Positions 3,797 through 29,440 of a stretch of DNA of 29,440 nucleotides are shown here, piece by piece. Each line of letters opens with the position of its first letter. The stretch's first letter is position 1. The stretch is taken from contig JWZX01003079.1 in assembly GCA_001275005.1 (NCBI GenBank), forward strand, positions 1-29,440, read 5' to 3'. The DNA is from Chrysochromulina tobinii (Eukaryota; Haptophyta; Prymnesiales; Chrysochromulinaceae). The translations under genes and the position numbers were made by a program. The notes beneath the pieces are model-generated. The model was not told the origin of the DNA. It did not search any database and saw only the letters and a list, made by a program, of their open reading frames with translations.

Positions 3797-6732
3797 GTGC
3801 CTTGATCTGTGGCTGAAATGGTACTTCCGGACAGTCGGCTATGCACCCCATCTGTTGTTGACAATGACGATGCGAAGGCAACCTGGACTTCCTTCTTGAG
3901 CTGATTCACCGTATCTGCGAGCATCATCTCCTTGATCTGCTTGACCTCCTTCACCGTATCTGCGATCCTTTCATGCAAGCCCCGAATCTCTTGCCGCAAG
4001 GCGGCGGAAACAACGGCGGCAATTTCCACCGTGCTAGCACTAGCACCAGCAACGGCACCAGCAACGGCACAAGCACCAGCACCATCTGCGGCACCTACTT
4101 CCGTTGCACTTCCTGGCATCATGGGCACGTACTCACTCGAGAGATCTCTAGAGCGAAGGCGGCTTCGTGAATTCTGCATCGCCAACTTTTGTGCGGCAAT
4201 GAGTGACCTTACGGGGTGGTTCTCTGCACAGCGGATAGTGTGCAAAATACTTCTGGCTGTGGCGACTTTGTCGAGAGCGGCGATAGATTTTTCTCGCGAC
4301 AGAACGGATCGTCTCGAAGGCGCTGCTTGCTTGGCGGGAGACTCTGTGGGAGACACCGAGGAGGCTGTCTTCCTTTGCCAGAAGCGCCTACGAAGCGATG
4401 GCTTCGGGGGCGCGGACAAGACGGAGGGTGACTCACCCCCATTCGCCTCGTCTTTGGAGTTGATGCTGCTCCGAGCCTGCGACAGCCACTTGAGACTGCG
4501 AGAGCTCTTTCCCGACTTGAGTAGAACATCAACATCATCGAGCTCCTTCAAGCCTGCGCGCAAGCACAAAAATCGTGGGCCGATTGTGATCCAAGGTTAC
4601 GATACGCGGGCGCCAAGCTGTGGTTCGTGCACACAACATGGCTCGTACGTGACTTGGCAAGCTGGACAACGTGAATCTTGAACGGCTCGAAGTTAGACAA
4701 GATGGCCAGAAAAGCATGCGCCTCCACCACGAAGACCTCACAGAAATCCAAAGCCGAGACCGTTGCCGTCCGCAGGCGGGGACCCTCGCGTTTCAGCATC
4801 GGGTCGTTCGTCATCGACCGAACGCCGAGGTCCGAGGGCTTTAGCAGCGCAATCTCGCCCAGGAGTGCCCCTGGGCCAAGGGTAGCGACGAGCCGCGCCG
4901 TCGATCCCGTAGCGAGGTGGGCAACATCGCCCAAGCTTAGACTTGTGCTGGAATCAGAGCGTCCCCTAGAGTTCGGCCGGTAAAAGACTCCAGCCTGTCC
5001 CTTGGACATCAAGAAGAACTCGGTGGCCCTCGTCCCTTCTTGGATGATGTCGTCATTAGGACAGCAGACAATCGGACGCATGCTTTGCAGGAGCTCACCC
5101 TGAAAGGACTCATCAGGAACGATCTGAAAGACGGGCATCTGCGCGATGGTAGACGATTGCAGGAAGCGTAGCGTGTCTCGGCGGAGACCGTCCGAGAGCG
5201 TTTGCATGATCTCATCGTCCGCATCGGTGTTCACCACGCAGTGCTTCCAGTAAAAGCGAAAGTAACGGCGGATTCGAGTTTGTAGCTCCTGCGGCAGTTT
5301 CTGTCTCGTCATGAACCACTGCAGGCTCTGCAGCCTCTTATGATAGAAGGCGTTCCTTGATGTGCCGGAACTGGCGTTGATCAGCGCTGTTGCGGAGCCC
5401 ATGACGTAGCCAAAGAGAACCGTGCCAAAGATCAAGCAGAACTGCGGGCGAGCAGAGCGCGAAGGTGACAGGAAGAGCGACCGGAGTAGGCAAGAGTCGC
5501 ATATGCAACTTGACAAGACAGGGGAGAAAACGGCCAATACTCACGATGGCATAAATGCGCTCGTTCGTCGTCACCGCGGCGATATCGCCATAACCGACGG
5601 TGGTGACAGTTGTGCAGGTCCAGTATAGGGAGGCGACGTATGGCGGGGAAAGTTCATGCCACTCGAGCACAGAGACCTCGCGAACAAGCTGCAGCTCGCC
5701 CCTTGCCACAGCTCTGGCAATCCAGGAATCCTCGGCCTCGTCCCTGCCGAAGTACTCGCGCGCGCCCACGTAATAAAAGCCGCACGCCATGATGTGAGTG
5801 AGATACAGCATCGTCAGAAGAATTTGGAACGCTTTCAAAATAAGGGGAAGCTGCAACTTGAGCTGGTCACTGCGCAAGAGAGCGGACAAAGCGAGTGGTT
5901 CATGAGCGTCAGCAATCCCACAAGCTGCTTCTGCGAAACATGGCAGCAGCGTGCAGGGCTGCACAAAGGTCGATAGTGCGGGGCACCTCATGTCTATGGA
6001 GACCGCCAACGAATCGGTCATATCGTCCAAGAGCTGTCCGAGCTTCAGGATCCGAACGAGCTTGAGCAGCTTGACTACGCGCAGAATACGCACGAGCTTG
6101 ACAAGAGATGGCGCTCCCGTGCCTTCCACCAAATTGGCGTCACAGCCGAAGTAAGCGAGCGTGAGGGCTGTGTGGATGGGCAGCGAAGACGCTAGGTCGA
6201 TTATAAACCAGCCACGCAGATATTTGCGCGCTATGAGCCGCGGATTCCGAGTCAAAACCTCTTCGCTGGTTTTCGGGTTGGTGATGTACGTCGCAGTCAC
6301 AAAGGTAAGGAGCAGGTCGACCATAAAGAAAATGTCGACGACAGCATCCATGATCCACATGGGCGAGGCACACCTATCAGCGACGTCGAAGCCAAACTTG
6401 ATGGGACTGACGATTACCGTCCACACCAGGAGCACGATGCTCAAGATGTCCCACTTGAGCTTGTTCGAGCTCTCTGGCAGCAGGAACCATTTGGGCCCGT
6501 CCTCCAACTTTTGGACGGGGCCTCGCGGGGCCCTTACTCCGAAGGTAGTGGGGTCTCGCGTGGCAGCGTCCTGTTTACTCGACGATGTACCTAACCACAT
6601 CGGTATTACCATCGTTTCGTCGGTGCGGCCTCGCTCCCGCAATGCCAGACGCTCAAAGCAGTCCTGCTGCGCTCCGATCAGGAGTGGCGTCTGTTTCGGC
6701 TTGCCGTCCCCCGCCGCTCGCTGGGCGACCAT
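3787..6732 (-). CDS. voltage-gated K+ channel with cyclic-nucleotide-binding domain (four exons)
   Basis: Exons in sense order are 6732-5987, 5869-5545, 5441-4649 and 4553-3787, joined by GT-AG introns of 117, 103 and 95 nt. The joined frame is 876 residues. Membrane segments: S1 about 94-115, S2 126-148, S3 171-190, S4 about 209-235 with repeated basic residues (LVKLVRILRVVKLLKLVRI), S5 about 255-280, and S6 at about 356-378 directly after the intron 2 junction. The pore has TTVTTVGYGD with the K+ filter GYG at 341-343. A C-linker follows (about 390-460), then a cNMP-binding domain at about 465-615 with GALLGEIALL and RTATVSA. The last 250 residues are Ser-rich with a probable coiled coil. 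This is the KCNH/HCN/plant-Shaker type plan. The first ATG (6732) follows an in-frame stop at 6747-6745. Intron 1 has no stop and keeps frame if retained. Ligand binding and gating direction cannot be read from sequence. Confidence 0.9.
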
Positions 6733-10040: not shown

Positions 10041-11693
10041 TCAGCTCCAACGATCCACATTAAGGTCGGCGAGAAAGTCGCGCACCCGGGCCGAATGGTG
10101 GGGCGGCGTACGGCGCGCCAGAGACTCGCCCGAGCTGACAGCTAGGCTCGTCCCCACCGTGGCCAACTTGCCCTCGCACACTGCCAACGGTTTCGAGAGC
10201 GCTGTGGTGGCGCGGCTGCCGCCCGCGTCGCCGCCCTGGGCCGTGCGAGCGAAGGGGCAAGTAAGCGCAAGGAGTACCCACATGAGCACCCACATGAGCG
10301 CGCTGCATGTCGCGCTGGCCACCAGTGCGAACACGCCGTCGTGGGCGCCACGCAGCCGGAGCAGCACGACGAGGCCGCCGAGCATCGCGGCGAGCAGCGC
10401 AAGGCAGCAGAAGGCGCTGATGAACCTCTGATCCGCGTGGGAGAAGAGCCCCTGGTTGCATGCTAGCCCCTGGTTGCATGCTAGCCCCTGGTTGCATGCT
10501 AGCCCCTGGTTGCATGCTAGCCCTTGGTTGCATGCTAGCCCTTGGTTGCATGCTAGCCCCTGTGACTCAAGCCACGGGCGAGTCGCGCTGCAGAGGGCGG
10601 GGGCGCACGAATGGATGCAATGCGGCATCGCCTCATTCGAATGGACGCCCAAAGGCAGCGGCACCGCCTCGGGCGCCACGGCGGTTGTCACGCTGCGCTC
10701 GCCGTTCGGAGCCCGCGCCGACGGCGGCGCGAGCGCGGGTGTTGCCGCCAGCTGCGGAGTACTCGCCAGCAGCAGAGTTTCGTCGGAAGCGGCACACCAT
10801 GCACGCACTTGATTGAAATACGGGGCAGAGCGCTGATAGCGGAGGAGAAGGCCGAGGAAGCGCACGAGTGAGAGCTCGGGCCACGTGACTGCCGTGAACA
10901 TCACCGGGCACGTCGCTGCCTGCCATAAAAGGAAATCGGAGAGCCGTTTCTCGCCTGAGGTACGCACGATCAGATCGACGGGCGGAAGCCCTGGCGCCGT
11001 GGTGAGCAGGCAGCGCTCGAGCAGCGCGGCATTAATGTCCGAGGGCAGCAGCCGGCCGTCGGCGCACGCCTTGCCCAGCCGGCGAATCGACGCCGCGATC
11101 TCGTTGCGCGACGTGTATGAGAAGCACACAGTGAGCGTGTGCCGCGTATTGCCCTGCGTCATGCGCATCACGCGCTGCATCTCGCCGTACAGCGAGGCGC
11201 TGACGCGCGACAGGTCGCCCACCACGCGCACGCGCACGCCCCGCCGCTGCACCAGGTGCGTCTCGTCGCTCATCTCGCGCAGCCCCTCCTCGGCGAGCGC
11301 CATCAGCGCATCGACCTCCGACTGGGAGCGCTTGAAGTTCTCAATCGAGAAGGCGTACACGGTGACGCCATGCACGCCAAGCTCGCAGCACCAGCGCAGC
11401 ACCTGCTCGAGCTTGTCATATCCCATCTTGTGACCTCGCGCGACCTCCATCCCGTGCGATCGAGCAAACCGCCTGTTGCCGTCCATAATGAAGGCGACAT
11501 GCTGCGGCACCGGACCCGCCATCACGATGCTGCACCCCAAGCGCTCAAGCCAGTTCAGGCCGCTCGGTCCACCATTGTGCCCGCGGTCTGTGCGCTGCTG
11601 CGCGACCTGCTCCGCTGACTGCTTCTTAGTCGGCGACGCCACATTCGGCGTCGCGTTCTCCGTCGCGTGCATGCGGGAATCCAGGATCCGCAT
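10041..11693 (-). CDS. cis-prenyltransferase (UPPS/DHDDS family) with repeat and membrane C-terminal extension
   Basis: 550 residues in one exon from the ATG at 11693. Residues about 60-300 are a complete cis-prenyltransferase domain: HVAFIMDGNRRFA (catalytic D71), GHKMGYDKLEQVLRWC, VTVYAFSIENFKRS, VRTSGEKRLSDFLLWQ (about 243-258) and WPEL. Such enzymes condense isopentenyl diphosphate onto an allylic diphosphate to make dolichol-type or other cis-polyprenols for glycosylation or plastid lipids. The usual enzyme is about 250-330 residues; this one carries a further 240. That extension has a Pro/Ala-rich linker, six repeats of GLACNQ (about 379-416), and two hydrophobic segments (about 424-447 and 454-479). 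It ends in a basic tail, RVRDFLADLNVDRWS. The C-terminal membrane anchor is unusual, because DHDDS-type enzymes usually associate with membranes by other means or through NgBR. Confidence 0.9.
   Translation of the reverse strand: MRILDSRMHATENATPNVASPTKKQSAEQVAQQRTDRGHNGGPSGLNWLERLGCSIVMAGPVPQHVAFIMDGNRRFARSHGMEVARGHKMGYDKLEQVLRWCCELGVHGVTVYAFSIENFKRSQSEVDALMALAEEGLREMSDETHLVQRRGVRVRVVGDLSRVSASLYGEMQRVMRMTQGNTRHTLTVCFSYTSRNEIAASIRRLGKACADGRLLPSDINAALLERCLLTTAPGLPPVDLIVRTSGEKRLSDFLLWQAATCPVMFTAVTWPELSLVRFLGLLLRYQRSAPYFNQVRAWCAASDETLLLASTPQLAATPALAPPSARAPNGERSVTTAVAPEAVPLPLGVHSNEAMPHCIHSCAPALCSATRPWLESQGLACNQGLACNQGLACNQGLACNQGLACNQGLACNQGLFSHADQRFISAFCCLALLAAMLGGLVVLLRLRGAHDGVFALVASATCSALMWVLMWVLLALTCPFARTAQGGDAGGSRATTALSKPLAVCEGKLATVGTSLAVSSGESLARRTPPHHSARVRDFLADLNVDRWS
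10447..10562 (-). repeat. in-frame 18-bp tandem repeat coding GLACNQ
   Basis: On the plus strand six units of AGCCCCTGGTTGCATGCT (two carry one C to T change) run from 10447 to 10554, with a partial seventh. The period is six codons and the frame is kept. It encodes a Cys-containing repeat just before the first membrane segment of the cis-prenyltransferase. Confidence 0.95.
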
Positions 11694-14196: not shown

Positions 14197-16975
14197 TCAC
14201 GTTGAGAAGACTGACAGCGTCACCGTGCAGGCCGCCTTGCCGGATGCACCGATGATGCACACTTTTTGTACAAGCTCTGCAGAGCTCTGTCTATTCATGG
14301 TGCTCATGGGAGGCGTCATCCATGCGACAGTGACCTCTTCGCCGGGCGAGCCAGCCACCCATGCCGTCGCGCTCGAGCCGCTGCTCACCACGGCAAGGAA
14401 GCGCTGTGACGAAACAGAGACCCACTTTGAAGGCTCGCCTAGCAGGTGCCATCCACCTTCCAAACGGGGCGCGAGGAGGACGGCCTCGAAATGGTCGAGG
14501 GTGCACGCTCGCAACTCGAGTGGAGACTCGGCGCTGACCAGTACTGTGGGTGGGTCGGCGACCCAGCTGCCGCTCGCGTTGGTAGGCGTATCGGCAGGCC
14601 GGACGGCGATCAGCACGGCGGATTCGTCAAAACCGAGCGCGGCGGGCTTTAGGGCGAAGCTGGATGCGAGCTCGGGCGCAAGCACGTAGCCATAGCGGGA
14701 GCCGTTCACCACCGAGTGCGTGAGCCACAGCTGGCCGTCGGCCCCGGCCGGGTGGTTCGGAAAGGCTCTGCCAATGAAGCTCGCGTCGGAGAGAGTGGCC
14801 GGTCGCTCCGGAGAGAGTAGTGTGCCGTCGGTGGTGCAGGCTTTCATGATGAGAGCGACGTCAGAGGTTCCAATCTTATCGGACGGAGCGACTGGCCCAG
14901 CGGAGAAGGCAAGGACCGCCGATTGCAGGCGGCTGTGCGGCTCATAGCCCCACTGACCATATGGATTGCCGGGCTGCTGCTCGGTCGACCAGAAGGTGTC
15001 TTTGGAGGGGGCGAGCCCGAGAGCGTGGGTGAAGATGGATTGCATGCCAATATCCCACTGGTGCCCACCTCCGGGCCCTGGGTGGATGTAGTCGCCGGAG
15101 GCTCGAGCATTGGTCGCCGCGGCCATCTCGACGGACTGCAGGATGTGCCGAGGGTACGACATGCACAGCTGGATCGTTACGTTTGAGAGCTCACAGCCGT
15201 GGCTCATTTGGAGCATCCATTGGCGCCCCAGGCTCGCAGACTCGCCAAGCGCGCGCGAAAGGTCGACTTCGGCACTCAACCAGTCCTGCTCGTATGAGAA
15301 GAGGCCCGCTCTCGTCTTATTCGCAGTCTTGTTCACAGTCTTGTTCGCGATCAAGGCCGCCCAGAACAACGCGTCGTCAGGCACCACCACGTCCGAGCCG
15401 TCATGGATGAACTTGTACGCGCCGCCGTTGCGCGTCGAGTAGGGTGTGTCCGGGTCCCAGTAGCGGTTGTGCAGCATCAGCGGCCAGCTCGTCGCCTCGC
15501 TCAGAGCCGTCAGCCCCAGAGGGAACACGTCGGGCCGCGCGTCCCAAGTCGTCACCCCTCCGGCCGCCCCCTTGAAATACCACCAGGAGTCGAGCAAGGG
15601 GAAAGTACCATTAGGGCTCATCAGGGCTCATCAGGGCTCATCAGGGCTCATCAGGGCGGCTCACCTTGAAATACCACCAGGAGTCGAGCAGAATGTACTT
15701 GTACGGGATGCGCCCCGCATCGGCGTACTTTTTGACATTGAGCAATGTGGTCTCGTAACTCTGGCCGAGCTCGGTGTTGTAGTAATAGTACGCCCCGTTG
15801 TCCGTCGAGTAGCCCAGCTTCTGCATGGCGAGGTCGCGGCGGTACGCATAGCGTTCCTTGCCGTACTTGCGCAGCAGCACATCACCCCAACTCTCCATCG
15901 CGTGGTTCACGCCGCCGTCGGCGCTGACAGCGAGGATCACCTCGACAGTGTAGTTTTCGGGGATCGACGTCACGGCCCCCATCACGCCGTAGGACAGCGT
16001 GCCCTCGGCCCACACCTGGCTGGCAGCCATGAAGTTGCTCGCCACCGACAGCACCATCGATGGAGGCGGCTGCTTAGCTAGCTTCTCCTCCGCTGGTGGC
16101 GCCCCGAATAAGACGACTGGCCCAGAGCCTTGGATTCCACTTCCGATCAGGTCGCCGCTCACCCCCGCACGGAAGTCGAAGCAGCTGCAGTTGAGCCTTT
16201 CGCAGTGCGCCTGGCAGTCGCTCCGCTTGCTCCACGGGTCCGTGAACGCCCACTCGGCGCACGTGCCGTTTACATCGAAGGTGCAGTCACAGTACGCTCC
16301 CGTATGCTCCTCGAAGCTCCGCGATGAGGAGCGGCGCTGGCTCGTGGGCGTGTACGCAGCGTAGCCGGCGGTGTACGGGGCCGGATTATCTGCGTGCACT
16401 CCCTTGGTGCACTCGCTGCTGCGCACCCGACACGTGCCCACCGGATCGCGTGAAGGCCTGATGATCGCCGTCCCGGAGGCTTCCCACACTCCAACTGTCG
16501 TTGCGTAGCCGGACATGAGGCCTTGGTAGCTGACGACACCACGAGTCGCCGCGCCCGCCGCCCGTCGGAACAACGGGAAGCCCGACACCAGCCCATCCCG
16601 GCGGCACCAGCCGAGAAAGCCGTCTCGGCAAACTGCTTGCACATCACCCTGGCCCGGTGAGGACTGTCGCACGCCAACGGGAAAGCGCTGGGCAAAGATC
16701 ACATGAGACGCGTAGTTCTTCACAGATGTCTCGAATGGTGTGCCATCGGCAGCAATCCACTTTGAAAGCTGGCCGCTCCAATTACCTGTAGTGTCAGCTC
16801 CAGAAATTGGGCTAACAGATCGCAATTTCAAAGAGCCATCTGCCGAGGAGTATATATGCCCCCCCGAAGAGAGCCAGCCGCCTGCAGACGTGAACTGCTC
16901 GACGCCACCGACGGATACTGTTAGGGCGCCATCCACTGGGCTCATGAGAGCCAGCACACCGGCCGCTTGCGACAT
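14197..16975 (-). CDS. clan GH-D-like glycosidase (alpha-galactosidase/raffinose-synthase related), two exons
   Basis: Exon 1 is 16975-15665 and exon 2 is 15570-14197, joined in phase 0 across a 94-nt GT-AG intron to give 894 residues. The N-terminal half has a beta-rich look plus a Cys-rich insert (CDCTFD...CSCFDF). The barrel begins around YKYILLDSWWYFK, continues GAAGGVTTWDARPDVFPLGL, and carries SYEQDW (D533, candidate nucleophile) and ARASGDY (D597, candidate acid), the arrangement of alpha-galactosidase-type TIM barrels (GH27/GH36/GH31 relatives). Many N-x-S/T sequons, including three in ANKTVNKTANKT, suggest passage through the secretory pathway. No signal peptide follows the chosen ATG, so an upstream exon may be missing. 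Substrate cannot be named. The two ORFs on either side of the intron overlap in meaning because a duplicated exon end lies inside the intron. Confidence 0.72.
15571..15664 (-). repeat. glycosidase intron: minisatellite flanked by a perfect 26-bp exon duplication
   Basis: In sense orientation the intron begins GTGAGCCGCC, runs through about four and a half copies of the 10-mer TGATGAGCCC, and ends with a perfect 26-bp copy of the upstream exon's last bases (exon copy 15665-15690, intron copy 15571-15596). The offset between the copies (94) equals the intron length. The acceptor AG lies inside the copied exon end. Confidence 0.88.
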
Positions 16976-24101: not shown

Positions 24102-24287
24102 TTGATCGAACGCACCACCAACAAGTCTTATGAATCAGCCCACGCGCAGCCATCCCTGTGTGGGCCGCGCCGCCCGCGAAAGCGCGCGAAAATTTGTGGC
24201 CATATTCGGAAGCGAGAGTGTTGATCATAAGCATAAACTGTCTTCTGTTCACAGGTGAAACGCTGTGTTAATCTCTGTAAAGAGCCC
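24102..24287. promoter_or_regulatory. divergent promoter and possible 5'-UTR intron end
   Basis: These 186 bp lie between two divergent start codons. TTCTGTTCACAG ending at 24254 looks like a splice acceptor 33 bp before the ATG, so the ADP-ribosyltransferase gene may have a 5' UTR intron or an upstream coding exon. Confidence 0.4.
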
Positions 24288-27200
24288 ATGCCAACGCCCG
24301 TCCGGCTGGCCTCCGACGTCTCCGCGGCGGAGATCGCCGCGGCGGCGGACTTGGCGCGCGCCAAGCACGAGGCCGACGTCGCGGCGCAGATCGCCAAGGA
24401 CGGTCAGCCGCCGGCCTCGGCTGGCGAGGGTTGGTCGGTCGCCAATTGGCTGAAAGACCAGCAGGTCACGCAGCTCATCGGCCAACTGCTCATGCGCCCG
24501 CTCGAGGACCTCGAGACGAGCGCCGCCTTTGCCGGCGCCTCCACCTACCCGGGCTCCGTTGAGCTCCACTTTTTCCGCGCGCTCGGCTCCAAGGGCAGCC
24601 GTGCGGCGCTCGTGCGGCTGCTGGAGACGGGCCATCTGCTTGACACGCTCGCAGACGCACTGTGGCCCAAGATCCAGCTCCTCGCCCAACGAGGCGCCGC
24701 GACCGCGACCGAGCTGCACAACAAGTTCATGGACGAAGGCGTGGGCTTCGACCTCGAGTACCTCGGCCTCAAGTCCTTCTTCGCCGGCCTCGAGGCGGTG
24801 GTGGGTGCGCCGAGCCCGCAGGTGCTCGAGGGTATGCGCCGAGATCACTGCGAGAACGACGACAGCACCATCCCGTTCGAAACGCCGAACTACAAGATGG
24901 TGACCACCTCCAAGATCGAGTGGTGGTTCGTCGTCGACCCGGAGCGCGGCCTGAAGGAGATGCGTCTCGAGAGCTGGCCTGCGGAGAGGCCCGACACTCT
25001 CCACGGGTCCGCCCAGGGACGCAGGGAGATCCCGACCTCGGAGTTTGAGGCGGAGCGTGCGAACCGCAACGCGCAGCTGCGCTCCCTCGACGCACAGCCT
25101 CTCGAATTTGAAGAGTTCCTTGGCGCACGCCTGTACACGGGCCCGTGCTTCGTCAAGTACAACACGACGCTCCGCGGGCTCCAGAGCTCGATTGCGTGGT
25201 TCAAGCAGACGTACGCGAAATTGTGCCGGGGGAACAAGTACACGACGACGCTGCACGTAATCAACTCGGCGGTCATTAAGCTCTCCAAGCTCACGATGGC
25301 GACGTATGTCTACCGTGGGGTGAGCGGCGGCCGACTGCCGAAGCGCTTGATGACGACTGATGGCGTGATTGCGTCTGATGATGAGCGTTGATTGCGCCCC
25401 TCATCAGGTGAGCGGCGGCCGACTGCCGAAGCACTTCCGCATCGCGAACGAGTACGGCGTGCGGGGAGGCATCGACCCCGCCTTCATGTCGACGACCTTA
25501 GATCGGGCCGTCGCGCTCACGTACGCCGCCTCATCCAACGGACCGGGCGTTGTCTTCTCAATGCGCCAGGGGATGGTCGACCGCGGCGCCGACATTGGAT
25601 GGCTCTCGCAATACCCTCACGAGATGGAGATCCTCTTCGCTCCGCTCACCGGCCTCGAGATCCACTCGATCTCGGTCGACGGCTCGGTGCTCGTGCCCGA
25701 GATACGACTTGATGATCACTTGTGACCTCTGATGATGACCTCTGATTGCATCCCTCATCAGGTGCTCGTGCCCGAGATACGACTCTCGGTGAATTTGAAC
25801 GCGTCCACGATCGAGCAGGTGCGGAGATGGCCCCAGATCGCCCCAGATCGCCCCAGATCGCCCCAGATCGCCCCAGATGGCGCCTATTGGCGCCCTGATG
25901 GGTCCTGATTGTCTCTGAGTGCTTCTGAGTGCCCCTGATGACCACTGGCCCATCTGAACGCGTCTACGAACGATCCTTGATTGCGACTCTCATCAGGTCA
26001 TCGGCCGGCGGCGCAAGCTACTCAAGGACATGGGTGACAACATGGCGATCGAGGTGTCCGCGGGTCTCTCGGGTAGCGGCTTTGAGGGCACCTCCGTGCG
26101 CATGCTCGCGTACCATCTGGCCAAGGACGCCCTGGCCCAGCCTGTGATGTGGTACGTCTGATGGCCTCTGATGGCCTCTGATGGCCTCTGATGGCCTCTG
26201 ATGGCCTCTGATGACCTCTGATGGCCTCTGATGGCCTCTGATGGCCTCTGATGACCTTCGATGGCCTCCGATGGCCTCCGATGGCCTCCCTCATCAAGGC
26301 ACCAAGGAGTGGCTGATGACCTCTGATGGCCTCTGATGGCCTCCATCTTCAGGTACAACGATGAGGAGAACTTCCAACTCGGTGTCGCGCGTGTCATCGA
26401 CGCGAAGCGCGCTGCGCTCGACCATCAGAAACGGTTGCGCTGGCTCGCACCGCAGCCGGTAGAGCTCGCAGATCACGCGGATGCGATCGTCAAGTTGCTC
26501 CGACACGACTTGTCCAACGTGCGGTGCGCGGCACTCGAGGCACTCGAAAAGTTGACGGAGGCTCAACTGTCGCCACACGGCGCGTCGGTCGTGCCGTTGC
26601 TGCGCGATGAGGAAGAGGCTGTACGCATGGCGGCGGTGCAGACGCTTCGAGCGATGGACTCAAGTATGCTCGCCTCTGATGGGCACTGATGAGCACTGAT
26701 GGGCACTGATGGGCACTGATGAGCACTGATGGGCACTGATGAGCACTGATGAGCACTGATGAGCACTGATGAGCACTGATGAGCACTGATTGACTCCTTC
26801 ATCACGCTCCGAGCGATGGACTCAAGTACGCTCGCGAGCCTCGCGCCGACGATGCTGATTGGCCTCTGATTGCCCCTGATGAGCACTGATGAGCACGGAT
26901 GGCCTCCTTCATCAGGTACGCTCGCGAGCCTCGCGCCCACGATGCAGCTCACTCTCGAGCAAGCGCCGCCGTGGAAGTCGGAGGTGCGCCGGGCGGCCGT
27001 CATGGCCTTAGGGCTGCTCGAGCAGGTGCGCTATGTTGGCCTCTGATGGCGTCTGATGGCCTATGATTGCGACCCTCATCGGAAGGCACTCGAGCAGGGT
27101 ACGCTGTCGCAGTACACCCTCGTGCACGTGCATGCATGCTGAAGGCTCCCTCTCCCCATTTTGCATGCATGCTTAAGGCTCCCTCTCCCCATTTTGCATG

Positions 27201-29440
27201 CATGCTGAAGGCTCCCTCTCCCCATTCGCATGCATGCTGAAGGCTCCCTCTCCCCATTTGCATGCATGCTGACTACCCTCCCCGCCCTTGGGCTTCTGGA
27301 GTGCATGCATGCTGACTACCCTCCCCGCCCTTGGGCTTCTGGAGTGCATGCATGCTGACTACCCTCCCCGCCCTTGGGCTTATGGAGTGCATGCATGCTG
27401 ACTACCCTCCCCGCCCTTGGGCTTCTGGAGCAGGGCAAGCTGTCGCAGTACACGCACGCCATCGTGCCGCGCCTCGACGACCCCAATGCGGCGGTACGCA
27501 CCGTGTGCCTCGAGGTCCTCGGCAAGCTGTCGCAGGGGGGGCTGCTGCCACATGTGAGCTCGATGATGACGAAGCTCGAGGACGACGATCTCTGAGCCCA
27601 TCTCTGAGTGCATGCTAATTACGCCCCTCATCAGGTGAGCTCAATGATGTTGAAGCTCGAGGATGAGGACGAAGCTGTGCGGCTCGCGGCCGTGGCGACC
27701 CTCGGCCAGGTGCATGCATGCATGCTCATGCCCCCCTCTCTCCATTCGCATGCATGCTGACTACCCTCTGGCGGCACGCGGGCCGTGGCGACCCTCGGTC
27801 AGGTCGCTGCCTCGTGGGCTCACCACGGCGCCCTTAATCGCGCTCGCGAGCCCGTGCATGCATGCGCTCACCACGGCGCCCCTCGGTCAGGTCGCCGCCT
27901 CGATCGGCAAGGGCCCGATCATCGCACGCGCGACGCACCCTCGGATGGGAGTGCGCGAGGCGGCGGTGCTCTTACTAGGCAAGCTAGAACCCAAGGACCT
28001 GGCCGATCGTATCGGGGTCGTGGTCGACCGGATTGCAGACGTCGAGGTTCGCGCTCACCACGGCGCCTCCTTCGCGCTCGCGAGCCCGTGCATGCATGCG
28101 CTCACCAAGGCGCCCCCCCCTCTCTCTCCCCCCAGGTGCGCGTGCGCGCCGCAGCCCTCCAAACGCTTCAATCCCTCGAGCCGCTCGAGCTTGTGAAGCA
28201 CGTGGAGACGGCCGTCCGTTGCCTCCAAGACCCAAGTGCGCGTGTGCGCATCGGCGCGGTCGACGTGATGGACAAGCTGCTCTCGTGGGGGAGGTCCTCA
28301 GTGGCCATCGGTGGCCATCCGCTCGAGACGACGCGCGAGGCGACGCTCGAGACGATGCGCGAGGCGACGCTCGAGACGACGCTCGAGGCGACGCTCGAGA
28401 CGACGCACATGCTCCCCTCGATCAAACGATACGTGCCGCAGCTGGTGCACTGCCTGCGTGATGAGGACGCCATCGTACGCCAGCGTGCCATCTCGGCGCT
28501 CCTAGTGAGTCTTGAGGTGCCCGAGCTCGTGCCCTACGTCGAGCAGGTGTGATCGCATCCGAGTGCATTCTATTGCATCCTATTGCATCCTATTGCATCC
28601 TATTGCATCTGAGTGCATCCTATTGCATATGAGTGCATCTGAGTGCTCGAAGCTCGTGCCCCCTCCGTTGAGCAGATTGTCGCGTGCATCGAGGACCGCG
28701 ACGACGGCGTACGGCGCGCGGCGTCGTTGTGGGCTACCGGTAAGCTGCTCGGCCCGGGGCTGCTCGGACTGCATGCATGTGCTCACCACGGCGCCCTGCT
28801 CTCCCCACAGGTAAGCTCGGCCCGGGGCTGCTCGGACTGCATGCCGCCGCGATCGCGACGCGACTGGACGATCCGATCCTGTCGGTACGCAAGGGGTCGC
28901 TAGAGGCACTTGGACGGGTGCATCCGACGCGGCTGCTCGCCTTCGCGCCCGCGATAGCGCTCCGGCTGCGCGACCCGATCCTCTCGGTGCGCCTCCCTAA
29001 TGGCCTCCCTAATGGCCTCCCTAATGGCCTCCCTAATTGCCTCCCGAATTGCCTCCCTAATGGCCTCCCTAATTGCCTTCCTAATTGCCTACCTAATTGC
29101 CTCCCTAATTGCCTCCCGAATTGCGCGACCCGATCCTCTCGGTGCGCCTCGGCGCGGTGGGCGCTCTAGCGCATACATGTGCTCACCACGGCGCCTGCCT
29201 CTCCCCACAGGTGCGCCTCTCGGCGGTGGGCGCTCTCGCGCACCTCGCCAAACCTCCCGACGGTGACTCGACGCTCCTCTGATTGCCTCTGATTGCCTCT
29301 GATTGCCTCCCTCATTGCCTCCCTAATTGCCTCCCTAATTGCCTCCCGACGGTGACTCGACGCTCCGCGAGCCCGTTGCGGGCGCATGCATGTGCTCACC
29401 ACGGCGCCCCCCTCTCCCCCCCTTCCCCCCCCCTTCCCCC
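24288..29440 (+). CDS. R-S-E mono-ADP-ribosyltransferase fused to HEAT repeats (3' end outside window)
   Basis: Exons: 24288-25319, 25408-25686, 25762-25818, 25997-26151, 26353-26663, 26916-27025, 27434-27553, 27635-27709, 27891-28046, 28136-28546, 28676-28739, 28811-28986, 29211-29262 and onward. All 12 internal joins use GT-AG and keep one frame of about 999 codons. Residues 1-280 are a helical N-terminal region with an N-terminal coiled-coil look. The ADP-ribosyltransferase fold spans about 280-440: FVKYNTTLRG, VYRG with R343, FMSTTLDRA with S372, and HEMEI with the ExE pair E416/E418. This is the R-S-E triad of arginine-type transferases, which move ADP-ribose from NAD to a protein. From about residue 525 on, at least ten HEAT repeats follow (for example NVRCAALEALEKL, AVRTVCLEVLGKL, SVRKGSLEALGRV), likely for target binding. 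The start follows the acceptor-like CACAG at 24250-24254. No signal peptide is visible, so the protein is probably cytosolic or nuclear. Confidence 0.85.
25320..25407 (+). repeat. ART-HEAT intron 1, 88 nt, with exon-start duplication
   Basis: The first 24 bases of the intron (25320-25343, beginning GTGAGCGGCGGCC) are an exact copy of the start of exon 2 (25408-25431). The rest is TGATG-rich filler ending CCCCTCATCAG. The offset of the copies equals the intron length. Confidence 0.92.
25687..25761 (+). repeat. ART-HEAT intron 2, 75 nt, with exon-start duplication
   Basis: Bases 25687-25709 (GTGCTCGTGCCCGAGATACG...) exactly repeat the start of exon 3 (25762-25784, 23 bp). The filler is TGATGACCTC-like and ends CCCTCATCAG. 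Confidence 0.92.
25819..25996 (+). repeat. ART-HEAT intron 3, 178 nt
   Basis: It starts GTGCGGAGATGG and has about five copies of the 10-mer CCCCAGATCG. It contains a decayed copy of the exon 3 end (25955-25973 against 25796-25814, 17 of 19 identical) and closes CTCTCATCAG. Confidence 0.85.
26152..26352 (+). repeat. ART-HEAT intron 4, 201 nt, long TGATGGCCTC array
   Basis: It starts GTACGTCTGATGG and consists mostly of the 10-mer TGATGGCCTC with variants, more than twelve copies. It ends CATCTTCAG. Only GGTAC is shared at the two junctions; no long exon duplication is visible. Confidence 0.88.
26664..26915 (+). repeat. ART-HEAT intron 5, 252 nt, with internal exon-junction copy
   Basis: The donor GTATGC is itself in a copied segment. 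An array of TGATGAGCAC/TGATGGGCAC (10-mers) is followed by an unbroken junction copy at 26806-26854. Its left part matches the end of exon 5 (26644 on) and its right part matches the start of exon 6 (26916-26944, one mismatch in 29). A second TGATGAGCAC array ends TTCATCAG. Before the internal copy stands TTCATCAC, an acceptor with its last base changed. Confidence 0.9.
27026..27433 (+). repeat. ART-HEAT intron 6, 408 nt, compound repeats
   Basis: In order: a TGATGGC filler ending CCCTCATCGG, a junction copy at 27089-27119 (CTCGAGCAG plus a copy of the exon 7 start), four units of about 33 bp with GCATGCATGC and CTCCCTCTCCCC, then four units of about 43 bp with GCATGCATGCTGACTACCC that each end in CTTGGGCTTCTGGAG, a copy of the exon 6 end. 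The last of these supplies the acceptor GAGCAG. Confidence 0.88.
27554..27634 (+). repeat. ART-HEAT intron 7, 81 nt, with exon-start duplication
   Basis: The first 29 bases from 27554 match the exon 8 start (27635 on) with three mismatches. It ends CCCCTCATCAG. The copy carries an in-frame TGA, so it cannot be retained as coding. Confidence 0.9.
27710..27890 (+). repeat. ART-HEAT intron 8, 181 nt, with internal exon-junction copy
   Basis: A GCATGCATGC-rich insert is followed by a junction copy at 27771-27814 (the exon 8 end, then the exon 9 start) and then a GCTCACCACGGCGCC-containing insert ending CCTCGGTCAG. An alternative acceptor at 27801-27802 inside the copy is possible but would put different sequence between the exons. 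Confidence 0.85.
28047..28135 (+). repeat. ART-HEAT intron 9, 89 nt, GCTCACCACGGCGCC family
   Basis: It shares about 55 bp with the second insert of intron 8 (CTCGCGAGCCCGTGCATGC between two GCTCACCAnGGCGCC blocks). It ends TCTCCCCCCAG. No clear long exon duplication is seen. Confidence 0.85.
28322..28406 (+). repeat. in-frame minisatellite in ART-HEAT exon 10
   Basis: Imperfect 12-bp units of the type ACGCTCGAGACG encode LETTREATLETMREATLETT. The insert interrupts a HEAT repeat between DKLLSWG and PSIKRYVPQL without breaking the frame. It is GC-rich and unlike the TGATGG intron repeats. Confidence 0.82.
28547..28675 (+). repeat. ART-HEAT intron 10, 129 nt, with exon-end duplication
   Basis: It starts GTGTGATCGC, has about nine units of the 10-mer CTATTGCATC/CTGAGTGCAT, and ends in a copy of the exon 10 end (28649-28675 against 28523-28546), so the acceptor GAGCAG lies in the duplicate. 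Confidence 0.88.
28740..28810 (+). repeat. ART-HEAT intron 11, 71 nt, with exon-start duplication
   Basis: The intron's first 37 bases copy the exon 12 start with a single 3-bp indel (34 bases shared). The rest is ATGTGCTCACCACGGCGCC and a CTCTCCCCACAG acceptor. Confidence 0.92.
28987..29210 (+). repeat. ART-HEAT intron 12, 224 nt, with internal exon-junction copy
   Basis: About eleven units of the 12-mer GCCTCCCTAATT are followed by a junction copy: 29125-29141 exactly repeats the exon 12 end (28970-28986, 17 bp), then 29142 on repeats the exon 13 start with few changes. A GCTCACCACGGCGCC insert with a CTCCCCACAG acceptor closes it. Confidence 0.9.
29263..29440 (+). repeat. ART-HEAT intron 13, runs off the window
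   Basis: The donor GTGACTCG lies in a 25-bp segment (29253-29277) that recurs exactly at 29342-29366. The filler is TGATTGCCTC/CCTAATTGCC units. After the copy come GCATGCATGTGCTCACCACG and a pyrimidine run at the window end, as in introns 11 and 12. The acceptor is not in view. Confidence 0.78.

Follow-up and report, generated by a model that had tools for sequence, protein, structure and literature searches.

Probable gain of spliceosomal introns in Chrysochromulina tobinii by insertion of short dispersed 3'-half cassettes with long exon duplications

A class of spliceosomal introns in Chrysochromulina tobinii appears, with good probability, to have been newly gained as short cassettes, dispersed in the genome and equipped with the 3' half of an intron only, inserted into genes and duplicated part of the adjoining exon. 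The anatomy of these introns, its recurrence in the genome, and the absence of introns 1-3 of an ADP-ribosyltransferase-HEAT gene and of one other intron from the protein records of relatives are shown. Where new spliceosomal introns come from has long been debated, and recent gains that still bear their scars are rarely available; this genome alone provides many, some of them with identical copies.

Gene model and intron anatomy

The window, meaning the whole 29,440-bp stretch analysed, is one entire contig of a 53.15-Mb genome assembly in 2,253 contigs. Exon-wise translation of the forward strand from position 24255 yields 13 exons that are free of stops in running phase, with 12 complete GT-AG introns between them. 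The earlier note's model of an ADP-ribosyltransferase-HEAT gene with 13 introns stands, the frame being unbroken through 13 exons and intron 13 (29263..29440) running incomplete off the contig end. Exon 1 (24255..25319), as translated here from a putative start, matched no Pfam family, and exon 2 (25408..25686) carries weak ADP-ribosyltransferase matches just below both Pfam cut-offs (22.5 and 20.1 bits versus 23.4 and 22.3). The HEAT repeats, located in exons 5 and 10, score over the cut-off. GT opens 10 of the 12 downstream exons of the gene. Two motifs were derived from 3' ends common to introns in the window: H, composed of GCATGCAAGTGCTCACCACGGCGCC, a variable tract and CCCCACAG, and D, composed of CTGATTGCNNCCCTCATCAG. 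All exons and introns of this gene lie on the + strand.

According to the earlier note, introns 1, 2, 7 and 11 open with the start of the following exon repeated exactly one intron length upstream, which is borne out for the first three. Intron 1 (25320..25407; 88 bp, offset 88) copies 29-30 bp of the exon 2 start with one mismatch and contains a D-type cassette ending in CCCTCATCAG. Intron 2 (25687..25761; 75 bp, offset 75) copies 23-24 bp of the exon 3 start with no mismatches and closes with the D cassette CTGATTGCATCCCTCATCAG at 25742-25761, and intron 7 (27554..27634; 81 bp, offset 81) copies 29 bp of the exon 8 start with three mismatches and bears a D-like cassette with CTAAT. Intron 11 (28740..28810; 71 bp) departs from this rule, with offset 71 held by the first 7 bases only and an identical 30-bp copy of exon 12 shifted by a 3-bp indel to offset 68; it carries an H cassette (28771-28795) and CCCCACAG.

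Introns 6 and 10 close with a copy of the previous exon, as first reported, spanning 15 bp with two mismatches in each. Intron 6 (27026..27433; 408 bp) copies the end of exon 6 at its 3' end and holds tandem units of 33 and 43 bp, and intron 10 (28547..28675; 129 bp) has the end of exon 10 copied approximately at its 3' end in a reciprocal arrangement. The internal copies claimed for introns 5, 8, 12 and 13 are present in all four, with the amendment that intron 8 also groups with introns 6 and 10. Intron 5 (26664..26915; 252 bp) has both exon flanks copied internally (26804-26855) at offsets of 162 and 90 and is probably the product of two events. Intron 8 (27710..27890; 181 bp) contains H cores, an internal copy of the junction at 27781-27814 and, at its 3' end, a copy of the end of exon 8 (16 bp, two mismatches). 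Intron 12 (28987..29210; 224 bp) combines an H cassette (29171-29195), a 32-bp duplication from 29142 (four mismatches, offset 69), a further copy at offset 155 and an array of 12-bp units, and intron 13 contains an H core and an identical 25-bp internal copy at offset 89. Introns 3, 4 and 9 have no clear anchored exon copy (anchored scores 2, 4 and 4). Of these, intron 3 (25819..25996; 178 bp) has a D-like 3' end and shows no legible exon copy, intron 4 (26152..26352; 201 bp) a decamer array TCTGATGGCC and an anchored match of just 4 bp, and intron 9 (28047..28135; 89 bp) two H cores, one at 28053-28067 and another, with one mismatch, near 28100.

Across the entire window, a scan for repeats at offsets of 50-420 with a score of at least 13 revealed five repeats with a left edge at AG|GT on the + strand, all in this gene region, and none on the - strand; other repeat pairs in the same scan numbered 144 and 145. 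Introns 1, 2, 7 and 11 look like single events, whereas in introns 5, 8 and 12 the same site seems to have been hit more than once. Later tandem growth would account for the minisatellites, several of which are composed of tandem branch-point-like decamers (CTGATGGCCT and similar). The unit GCATGCATGCTGACTACC looks like a local expansion, because all five of its exact genome matches fall inside the window. A 12/24-bp tandem repeat in exon 10 (28320-28406) codes in frame (LETTREATLET), so the minisatellites here are not all intronic. Elsewhere in the window, the tandem units CATCAGGGCT and AGCCCCTGGTTGCATGCT (15609-15657 and 10447-10562) lie in or adjoin minus-strand frames; they are similar to the D decamers and the TGCATGC motif, and the reverse complement of CATCAGGGCT contains CTGATG.

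Dispersed H and D cassettes

The H core GCTCACCACGGCGCC has 933 exact copies in the genome, and D with the following GT has 663, with no genome match for the reversed-pattern control of either. CACAG lies 1-30 bases downstream of the H core in 596 cases, and GT comes next in 498 of them (84%). Both cassettes have a branch-point-like motif, which is GCTCAC in H and CTGAT in D, followed by a pyrimidine tract and then by CAG at the end; we take GCTCAC and CTGAT to be branch-point motifs from their likeness to yUnAy-type branch points. The column profile fades ~10 bases upstream of the H core, and the first 13-49 intron bases are locus-specific. In copies of H and D, families that are otherwise unlike, GCATGC often stands directly before the branch-point motif. 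TGCATG is a splicing-factor site in animals.

Exon copies across the genome

A search at cassette loci across the genome, with controls, finds that exon-repeating introns recur, with the target-duplication anatomy present in dozens of other loci. At a threshold score of at least 12, an anchored copy of the downstream exon's start lies upstream of the H cassette at 38 of 90 loci, compared with 1 of 900 in the other-locus control and 0 of 90 with the exon reversed. The corresponding figures for D are 37 of 64, 12 of 640 and 0 of 64, and at a score of at least 18 they are 29 of 64 D loci versus 4 of 640 in the control. The H sample comprises 101 distinct loci minus 11 with no YAG within 70 bases or with short downstream sequence, and the D sample comprises 64; 6 H and 11 D places were passed over for their short flanks. 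Exons start with GT at 64 of the 90 H loci, where the search did not demand it; the D search demanded GT after CAG, and its GT rate is hence biased. No anchored copy reaches a score of 12 at 52 of 90 H and 27 of 64 D loci, a remainder in which decay and other origins are not separated. With the repeat boundary left free, a GT one intron length upstream is found at 35 of the 60 H loci and at 26 of the 45 D loci.

Among the anchored loci, 5 of the 38 for H and 11 of the 37 for D are preceded by a cassette end, as in a tandem array. Exclusion of these 16 leaves 59 loci, and dropping a further 13, with an upstream copy that opens with neither GT nor GC, yields a set of 46 (28 H, 18 D). Within this set, the upstream copy starts with GT in 44 and GC in 2, preceded by A at -2 in 21 and G at -1 in 36 and followed by R in 44 and G at +5 in 34, forming G|GTRNG-like sites. 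The match extends past the splice sites upstream by just 0-3 bases in all 46. Across the 41 loci with at most two mismatches, the duplication measures 26.6 ± 9.5 bp (range 13-49), the insert 54.5 ± 18 bp and the intron 81 ± 15 bp, and the duplicate pairs are identical in 16. In the 28 H introns, GT and the presumed branch A lie 38-81 bases apart, with a median of 52, and the first 13-46 of these bases are given by the duplication.

The spliced frame is open over 25 residues on the left and 15 on the right at 39 of the 46 loci, and intron retention would shift or stop the frame at 36. Among seven joined proteins, chosen for a recognisable domain, Pfam scores exceed the cut-off in six, with L151 falling below. 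Whole intron units, each composed of a duplication and a cassette, are amplified as tandem arrays at L029, L047, L085, L109, L110 and L111, with unit sizes from 54 bp in L111 to 82 bp in L029 and, in some arrays, a splice-like end in each unit.

A further search covered kinase and kinesin domains regardless of cassettes, yielding 7 kinase and 20 chosen kinesin regions with a split match. Junctions were set by hand in 20 cases and measured in 15, the other five being dropped with an unmatched flank string. An anchored 5' copy is present in 2 of 15 at a score of at least 7 (L097 and L116; control 1 of 210) and in 5 of 15 at a score of at least 6 (control 2 of 210), and an anchored 3' copy of score at least 7 is present in 1 of 15 (L121; control 0 of 210). 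Strong internal copies occur in L108, L110 and L112; by eye, L104 holds a decayed-looking copy, and L105, among the dropped five, shows a copy. The next exon starts with GT in 10 of the 15 introns, as placed by hand-set junctions. The exon-copy class is present in this cassette-blind sample, and many introns there have no copy. Four of the seven split kinase domains, considered as introns, were read as in-frame loops instead, and no settable junction was found in the kinesin regions L118, L119 and L122.

Relatives without the introns

Exons 1, 2 and 4 were compared separately with 34 related proteins, whose records do not state a DNA or RNA source. Exons 1 and 2 are both placed in 24 of the 34 matches, separated by a gap of 0 residues in 21 and of 39, -1 and 1 residues in the other three. 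The distance from exon 2 to exon 4 is exactly exon 3 (19 residues) in 3 of 3 matches with an exon 4 score above 50. Introns 1-3, present in this lineage, are absent in these relatives and, to judge from the protein alignments, are likely absent from their DNA as well. The recent gain suggested by the near-identity of the copies agrees with these counts (21 of 24 for intron 1; 3 of 3 for introns 2 and 3), and conservation in distant relatives, which would have made the gain old, is not seen at the positions of introns 1-3 in the testable relatives. P0241 (99%), the representative of a 90% cluster of 44, reads VYRG-VSGGRLPK and then continues through intron 1 until a stop.

An asparaginase intron (L066) is composed of a 22-bp duplication with one mismatch and a D cassette. 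The joined protein contains both asparaginase domains, with the junction within the second, and this junction is crossed gap-free by 90 of the 120 listed relatives, including the 11 best (P0121-P0131, 67-86% identity). In two near-identical records, representing clusters of 70 and 9, the translation continues into the intron. No near-identical spliced record was found among the 120 asparaginase and 34 ADP-ribosyltransferase-gene matches listed, and we therefore infer splicing, which probably occurs, from frame and homology.

In P0244, a relative with 54% identity, the positions of exons 1 and 2 are separated by 39 additional residues, after which comes VYRGVSGGRLP; the extra residues are possibly an independent intron read through, a few codons upstream. 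The named protein matches are distant (Prymnesium parvum, 52%; Rhizochromulina, 56%).

Proposed mechanism and alternatives

In the proposed mechanism, the cassette would bring the 3' half only, with the branch-point-like motif, the pyrimidine tract and the CAG at its end, and its insertion would duplicate 13-49 bp of exon. The left copy would begin at a pre-existing G|GTRNG and so give both the 5' splice site and its distance from the branch point, with the right copy left as the intact exon. Splicing from the left-copy GT to the cassette CAG would remove one copy and the cassette, restoring the frame exactly. Because the cassette has no 5' splice site and the duplication gives GT and spacing, the long duplication looks like what makes a 3'-only cassette workable, and with the missing start signal supplied by the duplicate, the insertion probably splices out without harm. 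Cassette and duplication probably arose in one insertion event, and the chemistry suggested for it below is tentative. The 5'-splice-site-like targets may reflect target choice or the survival of spliceable insertions, and the exact GT boundary could come from splicing selection instead of the insertion step. Duplication and insert length are correlated (rho -0.81, 23 H loci); this was rejected as evidence on mechanism, the narrow intron length (80 ± 7) alone producing the correlation.

Tandem duplication with filler had been named as the rival model, in which replication slippage duplicates an exon segment of 15-50 bp, filler is added and the spliceosome adopts the product. The direct repeats at intron-length offset that it calls for are real, whole-unit arrays exist (the 5 H and 11 D anchored loci above), and the junction-spanning blocks in introns 5 and 8 suggest that some events may differ. 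Alone, however, it is insufficient, since the filler consists of one or other of two cassettes that have 933 and 663 exact matches across the genome, and the AGGT that it expects inside the duplicated segment conflicts with an upstream match of just 0-3 bases in the 46 loci; we hold it highly improbable. Collapsed or duplicated reads that mimic repeats would make the pattern an assembly or annotation artefact, as a draft of 2,253 contigs might allow, but other public cluster representatives (44, 70 and 9 members) show the same exon copy and intron read-through, and reading frames are kept, which leaves this explanation scarcely credible.

Within the insertion reading, a staggered-nick or 3'-anchored copying reaction is weakly favoured over a transposase. 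A classical non-autonomous DNA transposon (a MITE-like introner) with a fixed target duplication and terminal inverted repeats would account for a dispersed family whose target is duplicated and whose duplication, as in Symbiodinium (PMC9860276), furnishes one splice site, and the inverted ends of D are slightly in excess (mean 3.24 versus 1.74 in shuffles). A fixed-stagger transposase is nevertheless disfavoured because the duplications vary in length (13-49 bp), H is without inverted ends and the 5' ends are ragged; terminal inverted matches of at least 6 bases occur in none of the 28 H inserts and in 3 of the 17 D inserts, which makes the case of D less clear than that of H. Such a transposon is, on the whole, very unlikely. 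Capture of cassette DNA or cDNA during the repair of staggered double-strand breaks, with long overhangs filled to yield the repeats and no dedicated mobile machinery, fits the variable repeat length and 5' ends and has been invoked for the 4-12 bp repeats at new Daphnia introns, according to the excerpted text of PMC4202315. This remains a tentative possibility, given that the repeats here are 13-49 bp (mean 26.6) and that the many loci with the same two CAG-ending cassettes would require a source of such fragments. Target-primed reverse transcription of excised intron or similar RNA, with its CAG 3' end joined at a nick before GT and its 5' end ragged, would explain the constant 3' end, the distance of 0-35 bases from the left copy to GCATGC in 25 of 28 H inserts (unplaced in 3) and the longer 5' module, for which 6 of 19 non-self matches start at query 43-45 and 13 later. 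The genome contains 26 RVT_1 matches, 22 of them over the cut-off, but just one match to the LINE-type endonuclease family PF14529; a 3' tail is absent, H loci were chosen for YAG and selection alone could fix the CAG end, and the tract before CAG and the 5' module are not co-inherited in the pairs seen, so that we regard this route as rather doubtful. The probabilities given to these last two routes overlap with that of insertion, as alternatives within it, and break repair with capture is about equally possible as 3'-anchored copying.

Comparison of H pairs weighs to some extent against insertion of dispersed cassettes, the preferred reading. H pairs sharing a score of at least 8 upstream of the core number 26 of 3,977, compared with 2 of 11,931 in a shifted control. 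The match right of the core spans 0-7 bases in the best 14 H pairs that share the 5' module, and two other listed pairs have 21-22 bases in common right of the core and no common 5' module. From a single copied master one would expect the 5' module and the right-of-core tract to be shared together, which is not the case in the pairs seen. Excised introns might themselves be mobile, with their RNA, ending in CAG, serving as template for target-primed reverse transcription at cryptic 5' splice sites in other genes, an idea we consider speculative and unlikely. Were it true, only the 3' part would need to travel, any spliced intron would be a possible parent, and the long exon duplication of each event would become the 5' part of the new intron.

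Relation to known systems of intron gain

These introns share with introners the presence of many similar introns across genes, a target duplication and a site that is empty in relatives, and with LINE- and SINE-type retroposition a target duplication of variable length. The introner definition demands similarity reaching near both intron ends (PMC9860276); the similarity tested here fades ~10 bases upstream of the H core. The process is best classed as introner-type intron gain, but not an introner by the strict pipeline definition, because similarity does not reach both intron ends.

Gozashti et al. 2022 (PMC9860276) describe introners for which a target duplication, given as 3-9 bp, furnishes one of the splice sites, and the difference from introners with short target duplications drawn in the earlier note is upheld by duplications of 13-49 bp. 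Introners of Symbiodinium microadriaticum have a 4-bp duplication and terminal inverted repeats (PMC9860276), whereas H has no inverted ends, the duplications here are 13-49 bp, and between-copy similarity ends well inside the intron. Aureococcus, Micromonas and Florenciella introners likewise give an aquatic protist genome many similar introns, with target duplications in some families, yet those duplications are 3-9 bp; Aureococcus elements bring the two splice sites with them and lengthen the transcript by 12 bp, and Florenciella elements bring neither site (excerpts of PMC9860276). Amoebophrya introners are likewise dispersed repeated introns with direct repeats at their borders, but the repeats are 3-5 nt and are accompanied by inverted repeats of 8-20 nt and non-canonical splice sites (PMC7789003, in part).

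Introns from tandem genomic duplication likewise involve a duplicated exon with one copy spliced away, but with AGGT inside the duplicated block and, in the excerpted account, a model without a dispersed cassette (PMC3443670). Daphnia neointrons likewise directly repeat the adjacent exon at the intron's far end, but over 4-12 bp, and a shared 3' cassette is not described in the excerpt of PMC4202315. Direct repeats of 4-30 bp at intron borders have also been read as insertion scars, but in a set of 213 introns of many kinds with a mean of 11.4 bp, and the excerpt of that work does not mention a cassette (PMC11782384). Duplications of 13-49 bp with 3'-only cassettes were not found in the titles or abstract openings listed by searches of open-licence PMC papers.

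The scars suggest that what travels extends from branch point to CAG and that the host site contributes the 5' splice site and spacing. Surveys demanding whole-intron similarity probably miss this class, and counts of transposon-made introns may therefore be too low. Presence or absence of single introns among strains would open the insertion chemistry, and the way newborn introns are spliced, to direct test.

It has been suggested that viruses serve as introner vectors (PMC12768974, in part). Among IMG/VR viral contigs, in a search that may omit records of this genome, D matched none and H matched one record. A 4,554-bp IMG/VR contig of 68% GC (L183) carries at 4494-4554 an H-type cassette with CCACAG|GTGAGT at the contig end, and may be either a misfiled eukaryotic contig or a cassette-carrying virus.
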